A stretch of 64,000 nucleotides of DNA from Bradyrhizobium sp. CCGUVB1N3 (GTDB taxonomy: Bacteria > Pseudomonadota > Alphaproteobacteria > Rhizobiales > Xanthobacteraceae): the NCBI RefSeq assembly GCF_024199925.1, contig NZ_JANADR010000001.1, forward strand, positions 2,108,001 to 2,172,000. Direction: 5' to 3'. The stretch's first letter is position 1. Each line of letters starts with the position of its first letter. Below the pieces are notes generated by a model. That model made no database searches. It was given only the letters and a program-made list of their open reading frames with translations, and was not told the DNA's origin. This document shows positions 21,929-63,088 of the stretch, piece after piece. Position numbers and translations under genes: made by a program.

Positions 21929-22013
21929 GGGTGGGTTAGCGCAGCGTAACCCACCAACTACTCTCAACGTTGACGGAAAAGAGGTGGGTTACGCTGCGCT
22001 CACCCACCCTGCG
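21929..22013. repeat. palindromic intergenic repeat, GGGTGGGTTAGCGCAGCGTA type
   Basis: GGGTGGGTTAGCGCAGCGTA with ACCCACC at the left is mirrored by GGTGGGTTACGCTGCGCTCA with CCCACC at the right. It belongs to the family at 2332, 4681 and 5142. Confidence 0.8.
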
Positions 22014-22025
22014 ATCTCTACGCCT

Positions 22026-22532
22026 CTACTTCGCCTGGGCGGCCGTCTGGAGCGCCTTCCAGTCGAATTTCTCGGCAAGCGCCAGCCCTTCCTCCTCGGT
22101 GAGGCCGTCATAGGAAAGGTTGAACAGCGCGTCCTTGCCCAGCGCCACGATGAGCGTGCCTGATTTCTGCGGGTTGTTGTAGTTCTTGAGCACCTGCATG
22201 CCATGCATGGTCGCAGACATGACGTGGCCGTCCGGAGTTTGAATGTTCATTCCGCTCTGGATCGGCGCCAAGGCTCCAGTGGCGGTCTGCCCGACCATGA
22301 CCGCGGCTTGCAGACGCGCCGAGCCGCGCGTGTATTCGCGCGTCGCCGTGGTCATGCTCGTATCGGACATCTGCATCGACATGCCGCCCGGCTTCTTGCC
22401 TTCCCATCCGGCAAGATCAACCAGGAGTGGCAGCAGCCGCTGAAATGGCTGGTCGGCGTGTGACGGCGAAAGCGGCCATAAGATCGCCAGTGCAACGAAG
22501 AAACAAAAAACCTTGAATCGCGACTGAAGCAT
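22026..22532 (-). CDS. hypothetical secreted protein
   Basis: The 168-aa precursor has a signal peptide (FKVFCFFVALAILWPLSPSH, cleavage after SHA near residue 26). The mature part has PFQRLLPLLVDLAGWEGKKP, then a Met-rich MSMQMSDTSMTTATREY segment, and a C-terminal TLIVALGKDALFNLSYDGLT. GGGAGAAGAGA precedes the ATG. No family recognised with confidence; the Met-rich stretch might bind copper, which is speculation. Confidence 0.7.
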   Translation of the reverse strand: MLQSRFKVFCFFVALAILWPLSPSHADQPFQRLLPLLVDLAGWEGKKPGGMSMQMSDTSMTTATREYTRGSARLQAAVMVGQTATGALAPIQSGMNIQTPDGHVMSATMHGMQVLKNYNNPQKSGTLIVALGKDALFNLSYDGLTEEEGLALAEKFDWKALQTAAQAK

Positions 22533-22594
22533 TCTCTTCTCCCGGTTGGGCTAACCGGACGAGCATAGCAACCCTTCGTTGCGCCAGAAAGACC

Positions 22595-22891
22595 TCACAC
22601 AGGCAGCACGCCCTCGACAAACATCAGCCGCCGCTCCAGTGCGATCCTCCGCAGCTTCAGCGCCTCGGCATATTCGGCCGAGGCGTACCATTCGCGCAGG
22701 CGCGCCATCGAGGGAAACTCGACGATGATGATCGTCTTCGGCGGAGGTCCGCCCTCCACGACCTCGGCGGCGGCGCCCCGCGCGAGGTAGCGGCCGCCAT
22801 ATTGCGCGATCGTCTTCGCGGCAAGCGTGCGATAGGCCTCCATGGCCGCCGCATCGCGGACCTCGACCTCGGAGATGACATAGGCCGGCAT
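22595..22891 (-). CDS. DUF1330-family protein (dimeric alpha/beta barrel)
   Basis: The 98-aa product begins MPAYVISEVEVRDAAAMEAY and contains YGGRYLARGAAAEVVEG, IIIVEFPSMARLREWYAS and AEYAEALKLRR, the full DUF1330 pattern of a ferredoxin-like dimeric alpha/beta barrel. GAGGG precedes ATG 22891; the longer frame to 23068 enters the neighbouring repeat. Function unknown. Confidence 0.88.
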   Translation of the reverse strand: MPAYVISEVEVRDAAAMEAYRTLAAKTIAQYGGRYLARGAAAEVVEGGPPPKTIIIVEFPSMARLREWYASAEYAEALKLRRIALERRLMFVEGVLPV

Positions 22892-22998
22892 GCGCGCACC
22901 CTCATGCGATGACGTTGACGATGGAGATATCGGCTGCGATCGATGGCACCGCAATTGGCGCTCACTCACGCGTGAGGGAGACATGCCCCACGTAGCTT

Positions 22999-23092
22999 CG
23001 TAGGGTGGGCAAAGGCGCTCTTGCGCCGTGCCCACCACTTCTCGTGCGGCGAGTAAAGTGGTGGGCACGCTTCGCTTTGCCCACCCTACGAT
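22999..23092. repeat. palindromic intergenic repeat, GTAGGGTGGGCAAAG type
   Basis: CGTAGGGTGGGCAAAGGCGC at the left is mirrored by CTTCGCTTTGCCCACCCTAC at the right, with inner GTGCCCACCACTT / AAGTGGTGGGCAC. Near-identical in design to 8157-8248. Confidence 0.85.
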
Positions 23093-23122
23093 TCAAAACA
23101 AAAACGGCGCCCGAAGGCGCCG
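23093..23122 (-). terminator. rho-independent terminator of the ribosomal protein superoperon (after rplQ)
   Basis: On the minus strand a CGGCGCC-TTCG-type hairpin (arms at 23105-23111 and 23116-23122) is followed by TTTTTGTTTTG. It lies 28 bp past the rplQ stop. Confidence 0.9.
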
Positions 23123-23149
23123 CTTTCTCAAATCTCAATGCCAGCCGGC

Positions 23150-23566
23150 TTACGCCGCTTCGGCTTCCTTCGCCTGGGACGGACCGGAGTCCTGGCCCTT
23201 GGCGTCGACGTCGCGATCGACGAACTCGATCACGGCCATCGCGGCGTTGTCGCCGTAGCGGAAGCCGGCCTTGATGATGCGGGTGTAGCCGCCCTGGCGG
23301 TCCTTGTAGCGGGTCGCCAACACGTCGAACAGCTTCTTGACCTGGTCCTTGTCGCGCATCTCGGAGATCGCCTGGCGGCGCATGGCCAGCCCGCCCTTCT
23401 TGCCGAGGGTGACGAGCTTCTCGACGATCGGGCGCAATTCCTTCGCCTTCGGCAGCGTGGTGACGATCTGCTCGTGCTTGATCAGCGCCGCACACATGTT
23501 GGCGAACATCGCGCGGCGATGCTCCGCAGTGCGGTTGAGCTTCCGATGAACCTTGCCGTGACGCAT
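23150..23566 (-). CDS. rplQ: 50S ribosomal protein L17
   Basis: The 138-aa product starts [20 protein letters not shown], the invariant L17 N-terminus, followed by LVTLGKKGG and [21 protein letters not shown]17 binds 23S rRNA near the exit tunnel. The C-terminal 20 residues are an Ala/Glu/Lys extension typical of alphaproteobacteria. It is the last gene of the superoperon, 162 bp after rpoA with a palindromic repeat in between, and is followed by a strong terminator. Confidence 0.97.
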
Positions 23567-23645
23567 GTAATTATTCCTTAGTTTGAAACTGCCGCGACGG
23601 TTCGTCGGACATGTTGCTCAGGTGGGCTGCCTGCGTTCGCCCGAT

Positions 23646-23726
23646 CGTCATTCCGGACGTCGCGAAGCGGCGATCCGGAATCTCGAGATTCCGGGTTCGG
23701 TCCTGCGGACCGCCCCGGAATGACGA
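23646..23726. repeat. palindromic repeat between rpoA and rplQ, CGTCATTCCGG type
   Basis: CGTCATTCCGGACGTCGC at the left is mirrored by CCGCCCCGGAATGACG at the right, with an inner CCGGAATCTCGAGATTCCGG perfect palindrome. Its place inside an otherwise continuous operon suggests a transcript-processing or stabilising stem. Confidence 0.8.
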
Positions 23727-23728
23727 AA

Positions 23729-24760
23729 TTAGTAGTGATCCTCGAAGCGCTTGGCGAGCTCGTCGATGTTCTCCGGCGGCCAGCCCGGCACTTCCATGCC
23801 GAGGTGCAGACCCATCTGGGCCAGCACTTCCTTGATCTCGTTCAGCGACTTGCGGCCGAAGTTCGGGGTGCGAAGCATTTCCGCTTCGCTCTTCTGCACG
23901 AGGTCGCCGATGTAGACGATGTTGTCGTTCTTCAGGCAGTTGGCCGAACGCACCGACAGCTCGAGCTCGTCCACCTTCTTGAGGAAGGCCGGGTTGAAGG
24001 CGAGGTCCGGGATGATCTCCTGGGCAACTTCCTTGCGCGGCTCTTCGAAGTTGACGAACACGTTGAGCTGATCCTGGAGGATACGCGCAGCATAGGCCAC
24101 GGAGTCATCCGGCGTGATCGCGCCATTGGTCTCGATCGTCATGGTCAGCTTGTCGTAGTCGAGGATCTGGCCCTCGCGGGTGTTCTCGACCTTGTAGGAG
24201 ACCTTGCGGACCGGCGAGTAGAGGCTGTCGACCGGGATCAGGCCGATCGGCGCGTCCTCGGGGCGGTTGCGCTCGGCGGGCACGTAACCCTTGCCGGTTG
24301 CGACCGTGAACTCCATGCGGATCTCGGCACCCTCGTCGAGCGTGCAGATCTGCAGGTCCGGATTGAGCACGACGACGTCGCCGACGGTCTGGATGTCGCC
24401 GGCGGTGACGACACCAGGGCCCTGCTTCTTCACGACCATGCGCTTGGGGCCTTCGCCCTGCATCTTGATCGAGATGTCCTTGATGTTCAGCACGATGTCG
24501 GTGACGTCCTCACGGACGCCCGCGATCGAGGAGAACTCGTGCAGCACGCCGTCGATGTGCACCGACTGCACGGCCGCGCCCTGGAGCGAGGACAGCAGGA
24601 TGCGGCGCAGGGCGTTGCCGAGCGTCTGGCCGAAACCGCGCTCGAGCGGTTCGGCAACGATGGTCGCAAAACGGGCCGGGTCGCTGCCGGGGGACACCTG
24701 GAGCTTGTTCGGCCGAATCAGTTCTTGCCAATTTTTCTGGATCGTCACTGTTTCACCCAT
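23729..24760 (-). CDS. rpoA: DNA-directed RNA polymerase subunit alpha
   Basis: The 343-aa product has the assembly domain ([40 protein letters not shown]) and the C-terminal domain ([40 protein letters not shown]) that contacts UP elements and activators. Length is normal. It dimerises to nucleate polymerase assembly. It lies 114 bp after rpsK. Confidence 0.98.
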
Positions 24761-24874
24761 ACAGGCCAGTCAGTCTGCCATTGCGGACACTGGCGTTGGA
24801 GAAAGGCCGCAAGTCGCGCTTGCGGCTTCGCAAAGCAAAGTCATCGCGGACGATGATGGCGTCCGCGACTCGTA

Positions 24875-25264
24875 TCAAACGCGCCGACGCTTGCGCGGGC
24901 GGCAACCATTGTGCGGGATCGTGGTCACGTCGCGGATCGAGGTGACGGTGAAGCCCGCAGCCTGCAACGCGCGGAGCGCCGACTCGCGGCCCGAACCGGG
25001 ACCGGCGACCTCGACTTCCAGCGTGCGCATGCCGTGCTCCTGCGCCTTCTTGGAAACGTCCTCCGCAGCGACCTGCGCTGCATACGGGGTCGACTTGCGC
25101 GATCCCTTGAAACCCATGGTGCCCGCCGACGACCAGGCGATCGTGTTGCCCTGCGCATCGGTGATGGTGATCGTCGTGTTGTTGAACGACGAGTTCACGT
25201 GCGCAACGCCGGAGGCGATGTTCTTGCGCTCACGACGGCGAACGCGGGTGGCTTCCTTGCCCAT
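24875..25264 (-). CDS. rpsK: 30S ribosomal protein S11
   Basis: The 129-aa product contains [40 protein letters not shown] and the C-terminal [17 protein letters not shown], all diagnostic of S11, which lines the mRNA exit channel on the platform of the small subunit. The C-terminal NGCRPRK motif is the conserved rRNA-binding end. It lies 123 bp after rpsM. Confidence 0.98.
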
Positions 25265-25387
25265 AGAGTACCTTTCCTGAAGATCTCAAACGCCGCCGTA
25301 ATGCCAGCGGCTACACCTGTGGAACGAAAAGCGTGTGGCGAGCGGGTTATCCCCTCTTCGCCACACGCCGCGATTGAATTCGAAAGC

Positions 25388-25756
25388 TTACTTCTTCTTG
25401 CCGGCGATCGCCTTGGCCGGCCCCTTACGCGTGCGCGCATTGGTGTGGGTGCGCTGACCGCGCACCGGCAGACCGCGACGATGACGCAGGCCGCGATAGC
25501 AGCCGAGGTCCATCAGACGCTTGATGTTGATGCCGACCTCGCGACGCAGATCGCCCTCGACGAGATAGTCGCGGTCGATCACTTCGCGGATCTGGAGCAC
25601 TTCCTGGTCGCTCAGCTGATTGACGCGACGATCCTCGGGGATCTTCACCTTCTCCATGATCTCACCGGCGACCTTCGCGCCGATGCCATGGATGTACTGC
25701 AGCGCGATCAGCACGCGCTTGTTGGTGGGAATGTTTACGCCGGCAATACGGGCCAC
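25388..25756 (-). CDS. rpsM: 30S ribosomal protein S13
   Basis: The 122-aa product begins [20 protein letters not shown] and includes [40 protein letters not shown] and a basic [18 protein letters not shown] tail that reaches the decoding region. It is a head protein contacting L5 and tRNA. The 187 bp upstream, between it and adk, is one of the larger gaps of the superoperon and could hold a promoter for rpsM-rpsK-rpoA-rplQ; none was confirmed. Confidence 0.98.
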
Positions 25757-25943
25757 GGCCTTCTCTCCTGTTGCCGATCCCTCGTCAGGAATCGGGCTTT
25801 AAGTGCTTGCTTTCTCGGGCAGGTGTTCACAAACGCGAACACGACGCCCACCCCCGGTCTTCCTGGGGCCCGGCATCGTCTGAAACTATCCGACTTGGAT
25901 GCGGGGCTTATTAAGGGATTCCAGGGGGTTTCGTCAACCGCTG

Positions 25944-26792
25944 CTAGCGCTTAGCTCGCTTTTTCGTGACCTTTTTTGAGGCCTTCTTCGGACCCTTTTT
26001 GGCGGTCTTTTTGGCCGCTTTCTTGGCAGCTTTCTTGGTAGCTTTCTTAGTAGCCTTCTTGGCTACCTTCTTTGGTGCTTTGGCGGCCTTCTTGACCGCT
26101 TTGGCGGCCTTTTTCGCGGGCTTTTTGGCCGATTTGGCCTTGTTGGCACCCGTCTTGGCGGGAGCCGGGTTGGCTGCCGTCCTGGCGTGGGTTTTGGGCT
26201 CGACCGCCCCCAGCGCCAAGAGAAGGCGGTGGATGGCGCGGGTGACCTCCTCGATGGTCATCATGCCATCGATGGTCGAGAGCTTGCGCCGCTCGGAGTA
26301 ATAGTGAATCAGCGGTTCCGTCTGGCTGCGGTAGCTGGCGAGCCGCTTGGACAGGACCTCCGGAGTGTCGTCGACCCGGACCTCCTCGCCGCGTTCCCGC
26401 ATCTGGGCGACGCGGGTCTCGACGCGATCGAGCAGCGCGCTCTCGTTGACCCTGAGCTCGATCACCCCATCGAGCTTGAGGTGCCTTTGCTTCAGCAGCT
26501 CGTCCAGCGCCTCGGCCTGCGGCACGGTGCGCGGGAAGCCATCGAGGATGAAACCCTTCTTGGCATCGGGCAGCTCGATCCGGTCGGCGATGATTCCGAC
26601 CACGACATCGTCGGGCACGAGGCCGCCGCTCGCCATGATCTCCTTCGCCTTCAGCCCGACCGGCGTTCCCGCCGCAACCGCAGCGCGAAGCATCTCACCG
26701 GTGGAAAGCTGCACGATGCCATAGCGCTCGACCAGCCGTAGCGCCTGGGTCCCCTTGCCCGACCCCGGCGGTCCCAGAAGGATAATTCTCAT
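25944..26792 (-). CDS. adk: adenylate kinase with long histone-H1-like C-terminal tail
   Basis: Residues 1-197 form a complete short-LID adenylate kinase interconverting ATP, ADP and AMP: P-loop GPPGSGKGTQ (7-16), STGEMLRA (30-37), DGFPRTVPQA (84-93), and a short LID around 127-150 without the zinc-binding insertion. Residues 200-282 are an added tail made almost only of Lys, Ala, Thr, Val and Pro in AKKAAKK-type repeats, like histone H1 or rhizobial nucleoid-associated proteins. Typical bacterial Adk ends near 190-215 residues. Its ATG overlaps the secY-paralogue TGA (ATGA), fixing the start at 26792 instead of 26861. The tail may bind nucleic acid or ribosomes; inference. Confidence 0.93.
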   Translation of the reverse strand: MRIILLGPPGSGKGTQALRLVERYGIVQLSTGEMLRAAVAAGTPVGLKAKEIMASGGLVPDDVVVGIIADRIELPDAKKGFILDGFPRTVPQAEALDELLKQRHLKLDGVIELRVNESALLDRVETRVAQMRERGEEVRVDDTPEVLSKRLASYRSQTEPLIHYYSERRKLSTIDGMMTIEEVTRAIHRLLLALGAVEPKTHARTAANPAPAKTGANKAKSAKKPAKKAAKAVKKAAKAPKKVAKKATKKATKKAAKKAAKKTAKKGPKKASKKVTKKRAKR

Positions 26793-27994
26793 TGGCGTTC
26801 GCCCCCCGGATCGGTGAGCGATAGGTCGCGCACCTGTGATTGAAGATCGAGAATAGTGCAAACCACAACCAGCGCCGCACCACCACCCATATTATACGGC
26901 AGCGCATGGCCAGAGGCCACGAAGGCCTCCGGAATCAGCTGCAGCACAGTCAGGTAGACGGCTCCGACCACCGTCGTCAACGACACCACGCGATCGAGGT
27001 AATCCGCTGTGGGCTCGCCCGGCGCAACGCCGGGAATGACGCCGCCATGCTTGGCCAACGAATCGGCGGCGTGCTCGGGATCGACGACGTAGGCTGTGTA
27101 GAAGAGCGCGAGCACGAATACGGCGATCGAGATCAGGATCATGTGGGCGGGCCGGCCCAGCTGAAGATGTACATAGGCGGCCGCGACCCAGGGCGTACTG
27201 GCGCCGAAGACGAAACTCGCAAATGCCAGCGGCAGATAGAAGATCCAGGGCGCTACAGTGACGGGTATCAGGTAGCCGGCGTTGTTGATCTTGATCGGCA
27301 GGACCGCCGCGCGCGGGGACAGCACACGCTTCCCTACGCGGCGTTCGGAAAATTCGACTCGGACATTTCGCCGCGCGCCTTCGACAAAGACAATCAAGAC
27401 AACCACCACGACCCAGAAGATCATGTGAGCCAGGACGAGATTGCCGGAGACCGCGCCACGCTGCACCAAGTCTACGATGCCGGCGACGTCGTTCGGGAGA
27501 TCGACGAGAATGCCGACGCTCAGAATCAGCGCGAGACCGTTACCGACTCCATGGCTCGTGATCTGCTCGCTGAGCCAAATCAGCAGGACCACACCACCGA
27601 CCATCGAGGCGGTAGCCGAAACCGCGAACCAGCCGTCGGCGCCGGCGGCGATTTCCGGAATCCTCTGAATCGCGGAGGCGATGCCGTAGGCCTGGAACGT
27701 GGCGAATGCCAAGGTGAGAATCAGCGTGTGGCGGGCGATTCTACGCCGGCCGTGCTCGCCCGACCGTTCGAGCGAGCTGAGACCTCGCCACACCACCGAC
27801 AACAATCGAATGACGATCGCCGCGCTCAGATAGGGAATGAGACCGAGAGCGAAGATCGACAGACGGGCCACTGCGCCCGGTGGCAGCGAACCGCTCGACG
27901 TCCACATGCCCGTGACAGGCACGCGGGTACCGAGAAGGAAAAGGAGCAGCGCGCCAATCGTGAGTGCGATCCGGCGCGCAAGCTCCTGTGTCAT
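26789..27994 (-). CDS. divergent SecY paralogue (shortened plug region, lacks the SecA-contact Arg)
   Basis: The 401-aa protein aligns with the neighbouring SecY from TM1 (RRIALTIGALLLFLLGTRVP) to TM10 (GGGAALVVVCTILDLQSQV) and keeps SHGVGNGLALIL, the ARRNVRVEF...RRVGKR cytoplasmic loop, and KHGGVIPG...PGEPTADYLDRV. Three differences stand out. The segment between TM1 and the IFALGLIPYLSA helix is 16 residues shorter and lacks the MFNMFAGG-type plug helix. The SecA-contacting Arg (SecY R357) is Ala324 (PGVAPGE). The basic C-terminal tail is replaced by DPGGERQ. It is coupled to secY upstream and adk downstream by ATGA overlaps on both sides. It could be a specialised or plugless channel, a membrane insertase, or a decaying duplicate; the intact frame and coupling argue for function. 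Confidence 0.85.
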   Translation of the reverse strand: MTQELARRIALTIGALLLFLLGTRVPVTGMWTSSGSLPPGAVARLSIFALGLIPYLSAAIVIRLLSVVWRGLSSLERSGEHGRRRIARHTLILTLAFATFQAYGIASAIQRIPEIAAGADGWFAVSATASMVGGVVLLIWLSEQITSHGVGNGLALILSVGILVDLPNDVAGIVDLVQRGAVSGNLVLAHMIFWVVVVVLIVFVEGARRNVRVEFSERRVGKRVLSPRAAVLPIKINNAGYLIPVTVAPWIFYLPLAFASFVFGASTPWVAAAYVHLQLGRPAHMILISIAVFVLALFYTAYVVDPEHAADSLAKHGGVIPGVAPGEPTADYLDRVVSLTTVVGAVYLTVLQLIPEAFVASGHALPYNMGGGAALVVVCTILDLQSQVRDLSLTDPGGERQ

Positions 27995-29322
27995 CTACGG
28001 CGGCCCCTCAGCTTCGACTTCCTGATCAGCCCTTCATACTGGTGGGCGAGCAGATAACCCTGAACCTGCGCCACCGTGTCCATGGTGACACTGACCACGA
28101 TCAACAGCGACGTGCCACCAAAGTAGAAGGGCACCGAGGCGTAGGAAATCAGGATTTCCGGGATCAAGCAGACAATCGCGAGGTAAATCGCGCCGATCAC
28201 GGTGATGCGCGACAGCACATAGTCGATGTATTCGGCGGTGCGCTCGCCGGGACGGATGCCCGGGATGAAGCCGCCGTGCTTCTTCAAATTGTCCGCGGTC
28301 TCGGTCGGGTTGAACACGATCGCGGTATAGAAGAACGCGAAGAACACGATCAGTGCCAGATACATGATCAGGAACAGCGGCCGGCCGTGGCCGAGCTGCG
28401 TCGTGAGCCACTGGAACCATTCCGGCCCCTTGCCCGCGTTGAAGTTCGCGACCGTCGTCGGCAACAGGAGCAGCGAAGATGCGAAGATCGGCGGGATGAC
28501 GCCCGAGGTGTTGAGCTTGAGCGGCAGATGCGAGGACTGTCCCTCGAACATCTTGTTGCCAACCTGGCGCTTCGGATACTGGATCAGGAGGCGGCGTTGC
28601 GCGCGCTCCATGAACACGATGAAGGCGATCACCGCGACCGCCATGATGATGACGATCAGGATCAGGCCGGTCGACATCGCGCCCTGACGGCCAAGCTCGA
28701 GCATGTTGGCGAGCGCCGAGGGCAGCTCGGCGACGATGCCGGAGAGAATGATCAGCGAGATACCGTTGCCGATGCCGCGCGAGGTCACCTGCTCGCCCAG
28801 CCACATCAGGAACATGGTGCCGCCGGTGAGCGTGATGGCGGTCGAGAGACGGAAGAACAGGCCCGGATCGCTGACGACGTTGCCGGCGCCTTCGAGGCCG
28901 ACCGCAATGCCGTAGGACTGGAAGGCGGCCAGGATGACCGTGAGGTAGCGGGTGTACTGGTTCAGCGTCTTGCGGCCCGCCTCGCCTTCCTTCTTCAGCG
29001 CCTCGAGCTGCGGCGAGACGGTGGTGAGGAGCTGGATGATGATCGAGGCCGAGATATACGGCATGATGTTCAACGCGAAGATCGCCATGCGGTGGATGCC
29101 GCCGCCGGCGAACATGTTGAACATGCCGAGGATGCCGCCCGCCTGCGAACGGAACACCTGCTCCCAGATGTTGGGATCGATGCCGGGCAGCGGAATGTAG
29201 GTGCCGAGCCGATAAACGAGCAGCGCACCCAGGGTGAACCAGATGCGCTTCTTCAGTTCGTCGGCCTTGGCAAGCGCGCCGAAATTGAGATTGGCTGCCA
29301 GTTGTTCCGCTGCTGAGACCAT
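27991..29322 (-). CDS. secY: preprotein translocase subunit SecY
   Basis: The 443-aa product is a canonical SecY with ten membrane helices. The plug GGILGMFNMFAGGG lies at about 62-75, the SecA-binding loops at ERAQRRLLIQYPKRQVG (about 239-255) and PGIRPGERTAEYIDYVLSR (354-372, Arg at 357 as in E. coli), and the basic C-terminus is HQYEGLIRKSKLRGRRR. It forms the protein-conducting channel with SecE (also in this window) and SecG. Its stop overlaps the ATG of the paralogue that follows. Confidence 0.98.
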   Translation of the reverse strand: MVSAAEQLAANLNFGALAKADELKKRIWFTLGALLVYRLGTYIPLPGIDPNIWEQVFRSQAGGILGMFNMFAGGGIHRMAIFALNIMPYISASIIIQLLTTVSPQLEALKKEGEAGRKTLNQYTRYLTVILAAFQSYGIAVGLEGAGNVVSDPGLFFRLSTAITLTGGTMFLMWLGEQVTSRGIGNGISLIILSGIVAELPSALANMLELGRQGAMSTGLILIVIIMAVAVIAFIVFMERAQRRLLIQYPKRQVGNKMFEGQSSHLPLKLNTSGVIPPIFASSLLLLPTTVANFNAGKGPEWFQWLTTQLGHGRPLFLIMYLALIVFFAFFYTAIVFNPTETADNLKKHGGFIPGIRPGERTAEYIDYVLSRITVIGAIYLAIVCLIPEILISYASVPFYFGGTSLLIVVSVTMDTVAQVQGYLLAHQYEGLIRKSKLRGRRR

Positions 29323-29436
29323 GTTGGGCTTTCTCCCGCCGCCTACTGCGCCGTCATGCCCGCGGCCGGGCTACTTGGGCGGACGCCGGACATTATCTGG
29401 TGCACGGCTTCGATAAGTCCATCGTCCCGCATGCGT

Positions 29437-29458
29437 AAAGGCCCGCGTGCCGCGGGCC
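29437..29458 (-). terminator. possible attenuator hairpin between rplO and secY
   Basis: On the minus strand GGCCCGCG-GCA-CGCGGGCC (8-bp GC stem, 3-nt loop) is followed by TTTACG. It lies 14 bp past the rplO stop in a 149-bp gap. The short T run suggests partial termination, which would lower output of secY, its paralogue and adk relative to the ribosomal genes. Confidence 0.5.
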
Positions 29459-29471
29459 AATGACGCAGATG

Positions 29472-29957
29472 TTACGCCGCCTCGCCTTCTTCGGTGGCGG
29501 GCGCGAGGATCTTCACCGAGCCGCCGGCCTTCTCGACGGCCGCGATTGCGGACTTCGTAGCGCCGTGCACTTCGATGTTGAGCTTGGCCTTGAGCTCGCC
29601 GCGGCCGAGCAGCCGGACGCCGGCCTTGGCGCGGCGCAGCACGCCGGCCTTCACGAGCGCTTCGGCGTTCACGACGCTGCCGGTATCGAGCTTCTTGGCA
29701 TCGACGGCGTCCTGGAGCCGGTCGAGATTGATCTCGGCGAACTCGACGCGGAAGATGTTGTTGAAGCCGCGCTTGGGCAGACGGCGATGCATCGGCATCT
29801 GGCCGCCTTCAAAACCCTTGATGCGCACGCCCGAACGCGCGGTCTGGCCCTTGCCGCCGCGGCCGGACTGCTTGCCCTTGCCCGAACCGATGCCGCGGCC
29901 GACGCGCATGCGCTTCTTGCGCGAGCCGGGGTTGTCGGCGATATCGCTGAGCTTCAT
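29472..29957 (-). CDS. rplO: 50S ribosomal protein L15
   Basis: The 161-aa product starts [20 protein letters not shown], continues [20 protein letters not shown] and [20 protein letters not shown], the glycine-rich L15 N-terminal extension that threads into 23S rRNA, and has a globular C-terminus. Located 75 bp after rpmD. Confidence 0.97.
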
Positions 29958-30032
29958 CGCCCTTCTCCTTGTTTCTTGCGCATGATCTTGCCCGAAGACC
30001 GGTACCGGCTTTTCGGGATCATGCGCCCTTGC

Positions 30033-30227
30033 TTACTTCCCGTCGACGATGCGGACGAGATGGTGAACCTTCTCGATCATGCCGCGAACCGCCGGGGTGT
30101 CCGGCAGTTCGGCGACGCGGCCGATCTTGTTGAGCTTGAGCCCGATCAGCGTCGAGCGCTGCGAGTGATGGCGGCGGATCGCGCTGCCGATCTGCTCGAT
30201 CTTGATCGTCTTGGCGGCCTTGGCCAT
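30033..30227 (-). CDS. rpmD: 50S ribosomal protein L30
   Basis: The 64-aa product, [20 protein letters not shown] then [20 protein letters not shown] and [13 protein letters not shown], is a complete bacterial L30. It lies 24 bp after rpsE, in the standard spc-operon position. Confidence 0.96.
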
Positions 30228-30251
30228 TTTTTGAACTCCGAAAAGCTTCCG

Positions 30252-30827
30252 TTAGTCGGCAGCCGCCTCGGCATCGCCGCCGATGCGGCGGGACTGCAGG
30301 GTGGACACCTTGATGTTGCGGCGGGCTGCGACCGAACGCGGCGAATCCTGGTGCTTAAGCGCATCGAAGGTCGCGCGCACCATGTTGTAGGGGTTCGACG
30401 AGCCGATCGACTTCGCCACCACGTCCTGGACGCCGAGCGTCTCGAACACGGCGCGCATCGGACCGCCGGCGATGATGCCGGTACCAGCCGGAGCGGCACG
30501 CAGATAGACACGGCCCGCGCCGTGACGGCCGGCGATGTCGTGGTGAAGCGTGCGGCCCTCGCGCAATGACACGCGGGTCAGGTTGCGCTTGGCGGATTCG
30601 GTTGCCTTGCGGATCGCCTCAGGCACTTCGCGCGCCTTGCCGTGGCCGAAACCGGCGCGGCCCTTCTGGTCGCCGATCACGACCAGCGCTGCGAAACCGA
30701 AGCGCTTGCCGCCCTTGACGACCTTGGCGACGCGGTTGATGTGGACGAGCTTGTCGACGAACTCGCTGTCGCGCTCCTCGCGCTCCTTGCGTTCACGTCC
30801 GCCGCGGTGTTCGCGTTCACCTGCCAT
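30252..30827 (-). CDS. rpsE: 30S ribosomal protein S5
   Basis: The 191-aa product has an Arg/Glu-rich N-terminal extension (residues 1-22), then [20 protein letters not shown] (the loop where spectinomycin-resistance changes map; wild type here), [20 protein letters not shown] and [21 protein letters not shown]5 helps unwind mRNA at the entry channel and supports decoding fidelity. Confidence 0.97.
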
Positions 30828-30874
30828 GGTTTTTCCAATCCTTCAGAGGCTTACGCCTCAATCCTCAAATTCCG

Positions 30875-31237
30875 TTAGAAGCTCAGCCCGCTCTCACGCG
30901 CCGCGTCGGCAAGAGCCTTGACGCGCCCGTGATAGAGGTAGCTGCCGCGATCGAACACGACTTCCTTGACGCCCTTCTCCGCCGCGCGCTCGGCGAGCAA
31001 CTTGCCGACCGCCTTCGCAGCATCGATGTCGGCGCCGGTCTTGCCGCCGTCGCGCATCGACTTCTCGAGCGAGGAGGCAGAGGCCAGCGTCTCGCCCTTC
31101 AGGTCGTCGATGACCTGGGCGTAGATGTGCTTGGACGAGCGGAACACCGACAGGCGCGGACGGCCGCCACCCGAGCGGCGCAGCTTCAGCCGCACACTCC
31201 GCTTGCGCCGGGCATTCGTAACCTTGGCTTTCGACAT
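30875..31237 (-). CDS. rplR: 50S ribosomal protein L18
   Basis: The 120-aa product contains [40 protein letters not shown] and [20 protein letters not shown], the 5S rRNA-binding L18 signature. It forms the central protuberance with L5 and 5S rRNA. Lies 11 bp after rplF. Confidence 0.97.
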
Positions 31238-31248
31238 GACCGGCTCCG

Positions 31249-31782
31249 TTACTTCTTCTTGCCTTCCTTGCGGAAGATGAATTCGCCAACATACTTCACG
31301 CCCTTGCCCTTGTAGGGCTCCGGCGGGCGATAGGCGCGGATTTCGGCCGCGACCTGGCCGACGCGCTGGATGTCGCTGCCCGTCACCGTGATCTCGGTCG
31401 GCTTCGGCACGGTGATCGTGATCCCTTCCGGGATCGCGTAGACCACGTCGTGGCTGTAGCCGAGCGCGAGCTGCAGGTTCTTGCCCTGCATCGCGGCGCG
31501 GTAACCGACGCCGGTGATTTCGAGCTTCTTCTCGAAGCCCTTGGTGACGCCTTCGACCAGATTCGCGACCTGGGCGCGAGCGGTGCCGTAAAGCGCCCGC
31601 GCGCGGTTGGTCTCGGCCCGCGGCTTGACCTTGACCTGGCCGTTCTCGAGCTTCACCTCGACGTCGTCATGGACGACGAACTGAAGCTGGCCCTTCGGCC
31701 CCTTCATCTTGACGGTCTGACCGTCGACGGTCGCGGTAACGCCCGACGGCACGGCCACAGGTCTTTTGCCAACACGTGACAT
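31249..31782 (-). CDS. rplF: 50S ribosomal protein L6
   Basis: The 177-aa product starts [20 protein letters not shown] and ends with [20 protein letters not shown] and a Lys tail; both halves of the duplicated L6 fold are present ([20 protein letters not shown] between them). It stabilises the GTPase-associated region. Lies 16 bp after rpsH. Confidence 0.97.
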
Positions 31783-31798
31783 GGATCAAAAATCCTTC

Positions 31799-32197
31799 TC
31801 AGAACACCGTGAAGAGGACTTCACCGCCCACATTCGCGTCGCGCGCGCTGTGGTCGGCCATGATCCCCTTCGGCGTCGACAACACCGAAATGCCGAGCCC
31901 GTTGTTGACCCGCGGCAGAGCCTTCACCGAGGCGTAGACACGACGCCCGGGCTTGGAGACCCGCTCGATCTCGCGGATGACGGGCTCGCCGTCGAAATAC
32001 TTCAGCTCGATCTCGATCTCGCTGCGGCCCGAGGAATGCTCGACCGTGGCGTAGCCGCGGATGTAGCCCTCGCTCTTCAGCACCTCGAGCACATTCTCGC
32101 GCATCTTCGAGCCAGGCGTGGAGACCTTGCTCTTGGAGCGCATCTGCGCATTGCGGATGCGGGTGATCAGATCGCTGATTGGGTCGTGCGTAGACAT
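31799..32197 (-). CDS. rpsH: 30S ribosomal protein S8
   Basis: The 132-aa product begins [20 protein letters not shown] and contains [40 protein letters not shown] and [20 protein letters not shown], the S8 C-terminal rRNA-binding motif. In E. coli S8 is the translational repressor of the spc operon through binding near rplE; the same role here is inference. Confidence 0.97.
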
Positions 32198-62897: not shown

Positions 62898-63088
62898 CAG
62901 TGAATGCCCAAAAGAAGGGTGACGAGATAACGGATGATCTGGTCGGCGGCGAAGAAGAAGATCGACGCCAAGGCAACCATGACGAACACCATGATCGTGG
63001 TGATCGTCGTCTCGCGACGGGTCGGCCAGGTGACCTTCGCGGTCTCCGAGCGCACTTCCTGCAAGAACTTGAACGGGCTGACTGCCAT
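62897..63088 (-). CDS. secE: preprotein translocase subunit SecE
   Basis: The 63-aa product has the amphipathic FKFLQEVRSETAKVTWPTRR segment and one membrane helix (TTIMVFVMVALASIFFFAAD), the minimal SecE that clamps SecY. It overlaps nusG by one base. With secY and its paralogue in the same window, it is the likely partner of both. Confidence 0.97.
   Translation of the reverse strand: MAVSPFKFLQEVRSETAKVTWPTRRETTITTIMVFVMVALASIFFFAADQIIRYLVTLLLGIH

Follow-up and report, generated by a model that had tools for sequence, protein, structure and literature searches.

We have found that a second, divergent SecY is encoded between secY and adk in Bradyrhizobium sp. CCGUVB1N3, within the stretch of 64,000 nucleotides analysed here (the window, from whose first letter positions are counted). 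The evidence supports a real, conserved and translationally coupled SecY paralogue, SecY2, that is without the normal plug. The role that we tentatively favour, at a little under even chances, would be that of an alternative channel subunit, a tandem duplicate sharing SecE with canonical SecY and forming an unlocked translocon without SecA-driven plug opening for minor or conditional substrates.

The secY2 gene (26789..27994, minus strand) is an open reading frame of 401 amino acids with no internal stop. The ATGA at 27991–27994 holds both the stop of canonical secY (27991..29322, minus strand, 443 amino acids) and the start of secY2, and the ATGA at 26789–26792 both the stop of secY2 and the start of adk (25944..26792, minus strand). 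Ribosomal-protein operon genes flank secY2 on either side in the ORF listing from 22000 to 32000. An intact SecY paralogue between secY and adk, coupled to both neighbours by ATGA overlaps, was what the sequence-only reading had proposed, and this is borne out. SecY2 matches the Pfam SecY family (PF00344) with 235.2 bits over profile positions 1–305 of 306, compared with 390.8 bits for the adjoining SecY and a curated cut-off of 32.2, and the two proteins are 37.7% identical (tblastn). On the NCBIfam SecY equivalog model TIGR00967, SecY2 scores 227.1 bits, under the curated cut-off of 253.6, and the adjoining SecY 433.4. Among the protein-search matches listed, the closest named SecY2 comes from B. 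iriomotense, at 84% identity. The 10.4-Mb host genome gave a single SecE match, with its core at 62909..63073 on the minus strand (contig C1:2170909-2171073), which the two SecY proteins would therefore presumably share as their partner. Downstream, the adk product has a long Lys/Ala-rich C-terminal extension with repeated AKKA-like units (25944–26300, minus strand), and a segment between adk and rpsM (25724–25799, minus strand) scores 34.1 bits on the model of the alpha-operon ribosome binding site (RF00140), slightly below its gathering score of 38.

The distribution of the gene was surveyed by searching 291 genomes of the family with SecY2 as query and a match threshold of E 1e-100. Matches below this threshold, all of them stop-free, were present in 16 of the 76 Bradyrhizobium genomes (the host included), and a further 40 Bradyrhizobium genomes, fetched regardless of carriage, yielded 10 with an intact secY2, giving 26 of 116 overall. 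The survey draws evenly from the larger groups, so that these frequencies are those of a species sample. Copies between secY and adk were also found in one genome each of three other genera, namely G119 (49% identical to the query), G009 (a frame of 428 amino acids) and G025 (433 amino acids). Many species thus carry secY2, rather than this one strain, and within the genus the reading frames are intact at amino-acid identities down to about 60%. Among the best 120 of 855 protein-search matches, many are named Bradyrhizobium ‘preprotein translocase subunit SecY’, a group in which the paralogues are not all separable from canonical SecY. An exact scan of genome contigs with 8-residue words of SecY2 gave no match, such words being too strict for this family, and a search of plasmid records (E 1e-60) returned 18 records, all below 60% identity and nothing SecY2-like. 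One genome of the same family (G144, locus L061) has a second, nearly canonical SecY away from adk (382.1 Pfam bits, 90.7% identical to SecY).

We aligned 29 distinct SecY2 proteins with 63 SecY rows, of which 56 are distinct and several share a genome, and numbered the positions on E. coli SecY. From the Gly ending the TM1 loop motif to IFAL, SecY2 has 17 residues (MWTSSGSLPPGAVARLS; residues 30–46, codons 27857..27907, minus strand) where the plug region of the adjoining SecY has 33, a length found in all 63 canonical rows. The stretch has 17 residues in 21 of the 26 Bradyrhizobium SecY2 proteins, 20 in three and 21 in two, and beyond the genus it has 33 (G009), 32 (G025) and 23 (G119). Arg357 of loop C5, present in 63/63 SecY rows, corresponds to Ala324 of SecY2 (27023..27025, minus strand) and is Arg in none of the 29 paralogues (Ala in 25, Glu in two, Met and Pro in one each); Gly359 and Glu360 beside it are retained in 29/29. 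The basic tail of SecY (HQYEGLIRKSKLRGRRR) and approximately its first 17 residues are absent from SecY2, and both termini are missing in 29/29. The plug counts of 17 and 33, the replacement of Arg357 by Ala324 and the loss of the basic tail, all noted earlier from the sequence, hold, whilst the absent N-terminus had been overlooked. That 29 distinct proteins are without the Arg and the tail excludes chance. Since G009 and G025 have 33 and 32 residues without Arg357, the arginine is lost even where plug length is kept; G025 is nested within the tree and its branch is very long, and we therefore claim no strict order of the steps of loss.

Known gate positions have acquired new residues. Trp250 of SecY2 (27245..27247, minus strand), equivalent to Ser282 in the lateral-gate helix TM7 of SecY, is Trp in 29/29, and Thr246 (27257..27259, minus strand), equivalent to the pore-ring Ile278, is Thr in 26/29, with Phe, Leu and Ile once each. 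At the other pore-ring positions Ile191 becomes Leu (29/29), Ile86 Leu (26/29) and Ile408 Val (17/29). The pore, gate and lateral-gate prolines P84, P276 and P287 are kept in 29/29 or nearly so. In loop C4, Arg242 and Glu238 are present in 29/29 and Lys250 is lost; several further invariant C4 and C5 residues have gone, and the PGE of loop C5 is found in 29/29. Altogether, 93 alignment columns are occupied by a single residue in 28 or more of the 29 SecY2 proteins, 78 of them matching SecY, and in 11 columns SecY2 is fixed (at least 28/29) to a residue other than the fixed one of SecY, including S282W, Q241R and I191L in 29/29. This pattern is that of a protein under its own constraint and not in free decay. 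The Prl-like W282 and T278 had been missed by the sequence-only reading, together with the graded plug length and, as described below, how often the gene has been lost and that a hairpin lies at its 3′ end.

In a maximum-likelihood tree of 45 proteins, the 19 SecY2 rows all group in a single clade (support 100/99) among the canonical SecY proteins of the family. Long branches meet at this clade, the end branch of G025 measuring 2.3, and its inner order and sister group are therefore unsure. The common genomic place, the lost N-terminus, tail and Arg357, and the presence of W282, R241 and L191 in 29/29 point to a single tandem duplication of secY, which would have occurred in an ancestor of part of the family.

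The AlphaFold2 model of SecY2 has the ten-helix SecY/Sec61 fold along its whole length. At the plug site it contains a lone 6-residue helix (residues 39–44), and so the prediction does not restore a plug, but this region is of low confidence both here (mean pLDDT of 54 for residues 31–40) and in the model of canonical SecY used as control. The eight best PDB matches of the SecY2 model are SecA-engaged SecY. An open-state reading of the model was rejected, because the control yields the identical top eight entries and the structural match consequently says nothing about an open state.

Selection on the gene was estimated from Nei–Gojobori dN/dS values for the 26 Bradyrhizobium SecY2 sequences (325 pairs, of which one with a dS of 0.031 was left out). 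The median over 324 pairs is 0.35 (range 0.16–0.51), and the 22 closest pairs give 0.16–0.41. For the same 22 pairs the 190-codon core of adk gives 0.00–0.22, and secY gives 0.00–0.10 in the 12 of them with full secY; adk is about as loose as secY2 in two of the 22 (L017/L093 and L018/L093). SecY2 is thus under purifying selection, mostly looser than that on secY or adk, and the values for the closest pairs, though relaxed, are not those of a pseudogene.

The gene is nevertheless dispensable. We compared 93 Bradyrhizobium secY–adk junctions, a non-random set in which 20 loci had been picked as without a second match and 17 as with a weak one, and found 26 intact genes, 26 remnants (mostly 255–295 bases) and 41 spacers (68–128 bases); G252, picked as without a second match, in fact holds a remnant. 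On a tree of the secY 3′ end and adk, the intact state takes 12 changes, 10 of them forced by well-supported branches. Many independent losses were rejected as the main story, as 22 of 24 remnants fall together in a single clade (100/100), the tree leaving out two of the 26 (L102, with no secY2 match, and L052, of 379 bases). The remaining two, G142 and G293, cluster with intact genes and represent decays separate from that of the common remnant; the spacer class contributes further ones. That in G142 is recent, secY2 being partly deleted and frameshifted between secY and adk (L040, 2618–3281). One old deletion allele interleaved with intact alleles across species is most simply explained by recombination, and the mismatch with the secY-3′/adk tree suggests that secY2 has been exchanged between species in this way. 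A core secretion gene within a ribosomal-protein operon would also be polymorphic in its presence or absence. With regard to symbiosis, nodC was found over its cut-off in 11/26 intact, 11/26 remnant and 14/28 spacer genomes (80 of the 93 typed), and a link was rejected (Fisher odds ratio 0.85, p 0.81, intact versus rest); nodC carriage therefore suggests no ecological role.

The 67 junctions reduced to a remnant or a short spacer, the frameshifted copy in G142 and dN/dS values mostly several times those of secY and adk are what would be expected if secY2 were a decaying duplicate, once functional and now under weak selection, that most lineages have lost with the rest slowly following. We regard this as unlikely, although it deserves serious consideration: dN/dS stays within 0.16–0.51 across all 324 pairs, 11 paralogue-specific columns are fixed, frames remain intact despite divergence to about 60% identity, and 22 of the 24 tested remnants come from one deletion, not from many. 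Even a dying duplicate would still reveal which constraints SecY sheds first.

The 3′ end of secY2 appears to carry a second layer of conservation. A hairpin-like element, GGTGCGCGA-CCTA-TCGCTCACC (26813–26834), and a G run (26802–26807) lie in the last secY2 codons before adk (26802..26834 in all, minus strand). The arrangement GGTG-N-GCG...CGC-N-CACC with a G run stands directly before adk in 93/93 Bradyrhizobium junctions; in carriers it forms the last codons of secY2 (Q-V-R...S-L-T...G-G), and it is retained in the 67 junctions without an intact secY2, where the sequence upstream is highly variable. It is also present in G119 and G074, and is absent in G009, G025 and the genera in which adk and secY overlap directly. 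The finder anchors on GGTG and CACC, so pairs 1–4 hold by construction; pairs 6–9 form in 91, 92, 92 and 85 of the 93 junctions and pair 5 in four, and an independent pattern matched 88/93. Covariation is too scarce to establish an RNA fold, and between 25600 and 28100 no Rfam family scored above its cut-off. The conservation of the SecY2 C-terminus is, in part, conservation of the adk leader.

Published work on SecY gives meaning to the positions that have changed. R357 is described as fully invariant in all three domains, SecYEG is inactivated when the RPG motif is substituted, and the TM7/TM10 allele prlA4 acts as a dominant that overrides such inactivating substitutions (PMC4826270). In R357E the plug stays closed, SecA binding is undisturbed and the SecA ATPase is uncoupled from plug opening (PMC6021171); ribosome-induced channel opening is left intact, and plug-deletion mutants are viable (PMC3689939). 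The prlA suppressor S282R moves the lateral gate toward the open position (PMC8256087) and the channel becomes leaky when hydrophilic residues are introduced into the pore ring (PMC7023257). The earlier description of the missing residue as the SecA-contact Arg is therefore right as to its absence and needs qualifying as to its role: published work treats R357 mainly as a coupling switch (PMC6021171, PMC3689939), yet a multi-residue RPG substitution weakens SecA affinity more than 10-fold (PMC4826270).

The lost switch, the mostly lost plug and the new residues at 282 and 278 together lead us to infer an unlocked channel subunit. SecY2 probably assembles with the shared SecE. The RPG-arginine switch, by which a bound motor brings about opening, is missing, as is most of the plug that it opens, and in exchange W282 and T278 sit at sites where mutations are known to bias the lateral gate toward opening or to render the pore leakier. 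The putative clients would be a minor or conditional set, most likely handled by co-translational or YidC-assisted insertion. As residue 282 is Trp and not Arg, the analogy with prlA is by position alone, and compensation would not be complete everywhere, G009 having a stretch of plug length and G119 having Ile278. Most other pore-ring changes are conservative (Ile to Leu or Val), selection is clearly relaxed compared with SecY and the gene is lost in many lineages, all of which count against an unlocked channel.

A regulatory role, in which SecY2 would be taken up into SecYEG complexes or draw SecE away and thereby modulate or block canonical SecY, seems to us doubtful. One SecE was found for two SecY proteins, ATGA coupling would link their synthesis, and the lost basic tail and C4/C5 residues could yield an inactive competitor; the conserved P84, P276 and P287, however, exceed the needs of a dummy. 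E. coli degrades SecY that is in excess of SecE, and given this, competition for SecE would be costly. It is distinctly improbable that SecY2 is a dedicated ribosome- or SRP-fed insertase or translocon, working without SecA or the C5 switch for a few membrane proteins. The ribosome-induced opening that persists in R357E (PMC3689939) and the raised SecY–YidC contact of the TM7/TM10 allele prlA4 (PMC5427846) would fit such a protein, as would E238, R242 and the C5 PGE in 29/29, but the loss of K250, of other invariant C4/C5 residues and of the tail could weaken ribosome docking too, and no linked substrate gene was seen in the operon. Least credible is a plugless pore for leakage of small anions or solutes and not of proteins, although it would fit Thr278 and the repeated secY plug and pore mutations of Methylobacterium grown on dichloromethane, which are predicted to turn the channel into a chloride leak and go with increased sensitivity to chloride (PMC4271186); a permanently leaking pore would drain proton-motive force and the conserved lateral-gate and C4 positions (R242 in 29/29, for example) would be pointless in it.

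The SecY fold and the place in the operon are known, and SecY2 shares both with canonical SecY (TIGR00967, PF00344), along with ~38% identity; it differs in lacking Arg357 and the basic tail, in the shortened plug stretch and in Trp282. Its combination of traits is absent from the literature that we found, a search of open-access full text returning nothing on a SecY paralogue between secY and adk, although a subscription paper may exist. The accessory SecY2 of Gram-positive bacteria, reported to form a complex with Asp4/Asp5 and to activate SecA2 (PMC5076819), resembles it in being a second divergent SecY within one genome. That system is of a different type, as the sequence-only reading had judged from context. 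Our SecY2 scores 118.2 and 131.7 bits on the two NCBIfam models of that family (TIGR02920 and NF009082), the cut-offs being 249.6 and 353, and canonical SecY scores higher than it on both models (175.7 and 185). The operon is also different; neither a serine-rich repeat substrate nor glycosyltransferases were found beside secY2 among the ORFs from 22000 to 32000, and the genome yielded one full-length SecA, one SecE and no SecA2. A weak, partial SecA_DEAD match in a 705-amino-acid frame (L153, C1:1077896-1078198; 27.6 bits, cut-off 24.6) is probably another helicase-like protein.

A second line of divergent SecY-like ORFs was seen in 13 of 281 genomes of the order outside the family. These 13 ORFs (L139–L151; ORFs around 1501), from which the split canonical secY gene of G441 was left out, lie elsewhere in the genome and include Hyphomicrobium GIW81_02955, annotated as ‘hypothetical protein’. 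Their alignment with SecY shows that the plug region is shortened and that little of loops C4 and C5 remains. They share with SecY2 the shortened plug stretch and the lack of Arg357, but are far more divergent (29–101 Pfam bits), are without most of C4/C5 and are not beside secY, and any kinship with SecY2 is putative. It is conceivable, if rather unlikely, that SecY2 is constitutively unlocked, working without either the Arg357 switch or SecA-driven opening of the plug, and is one of at least two Hyphomicrobiales lines shedding plug and docking loops. Both lines would then define SecY channels independent of the known cytosolic motors.

The closest functional parallels to the favoured reading of SecY2 as an unlocked channel subunit are the E. 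coli prlA (S282R), pore-ring and plug-deletion mutants, which are changed at the same positions or have lost the same plug. Those are laboratory alleles of a sole secY, whereas SecY2 is a natural paralogue combining several such changes with the loss of Arg357. As it has lost plug and arginine and is yet under selection, nature may have built an unlocked export channel hitherto known from laboratory mutants. SecY2 is thereby a ready-made natural experiment in which the arginine and the plug are lost together and known gate positions are fixed, with the near-full-length plugs of G009 and G025 to serve as intermediates and hundreds of public sequences to draw upon.
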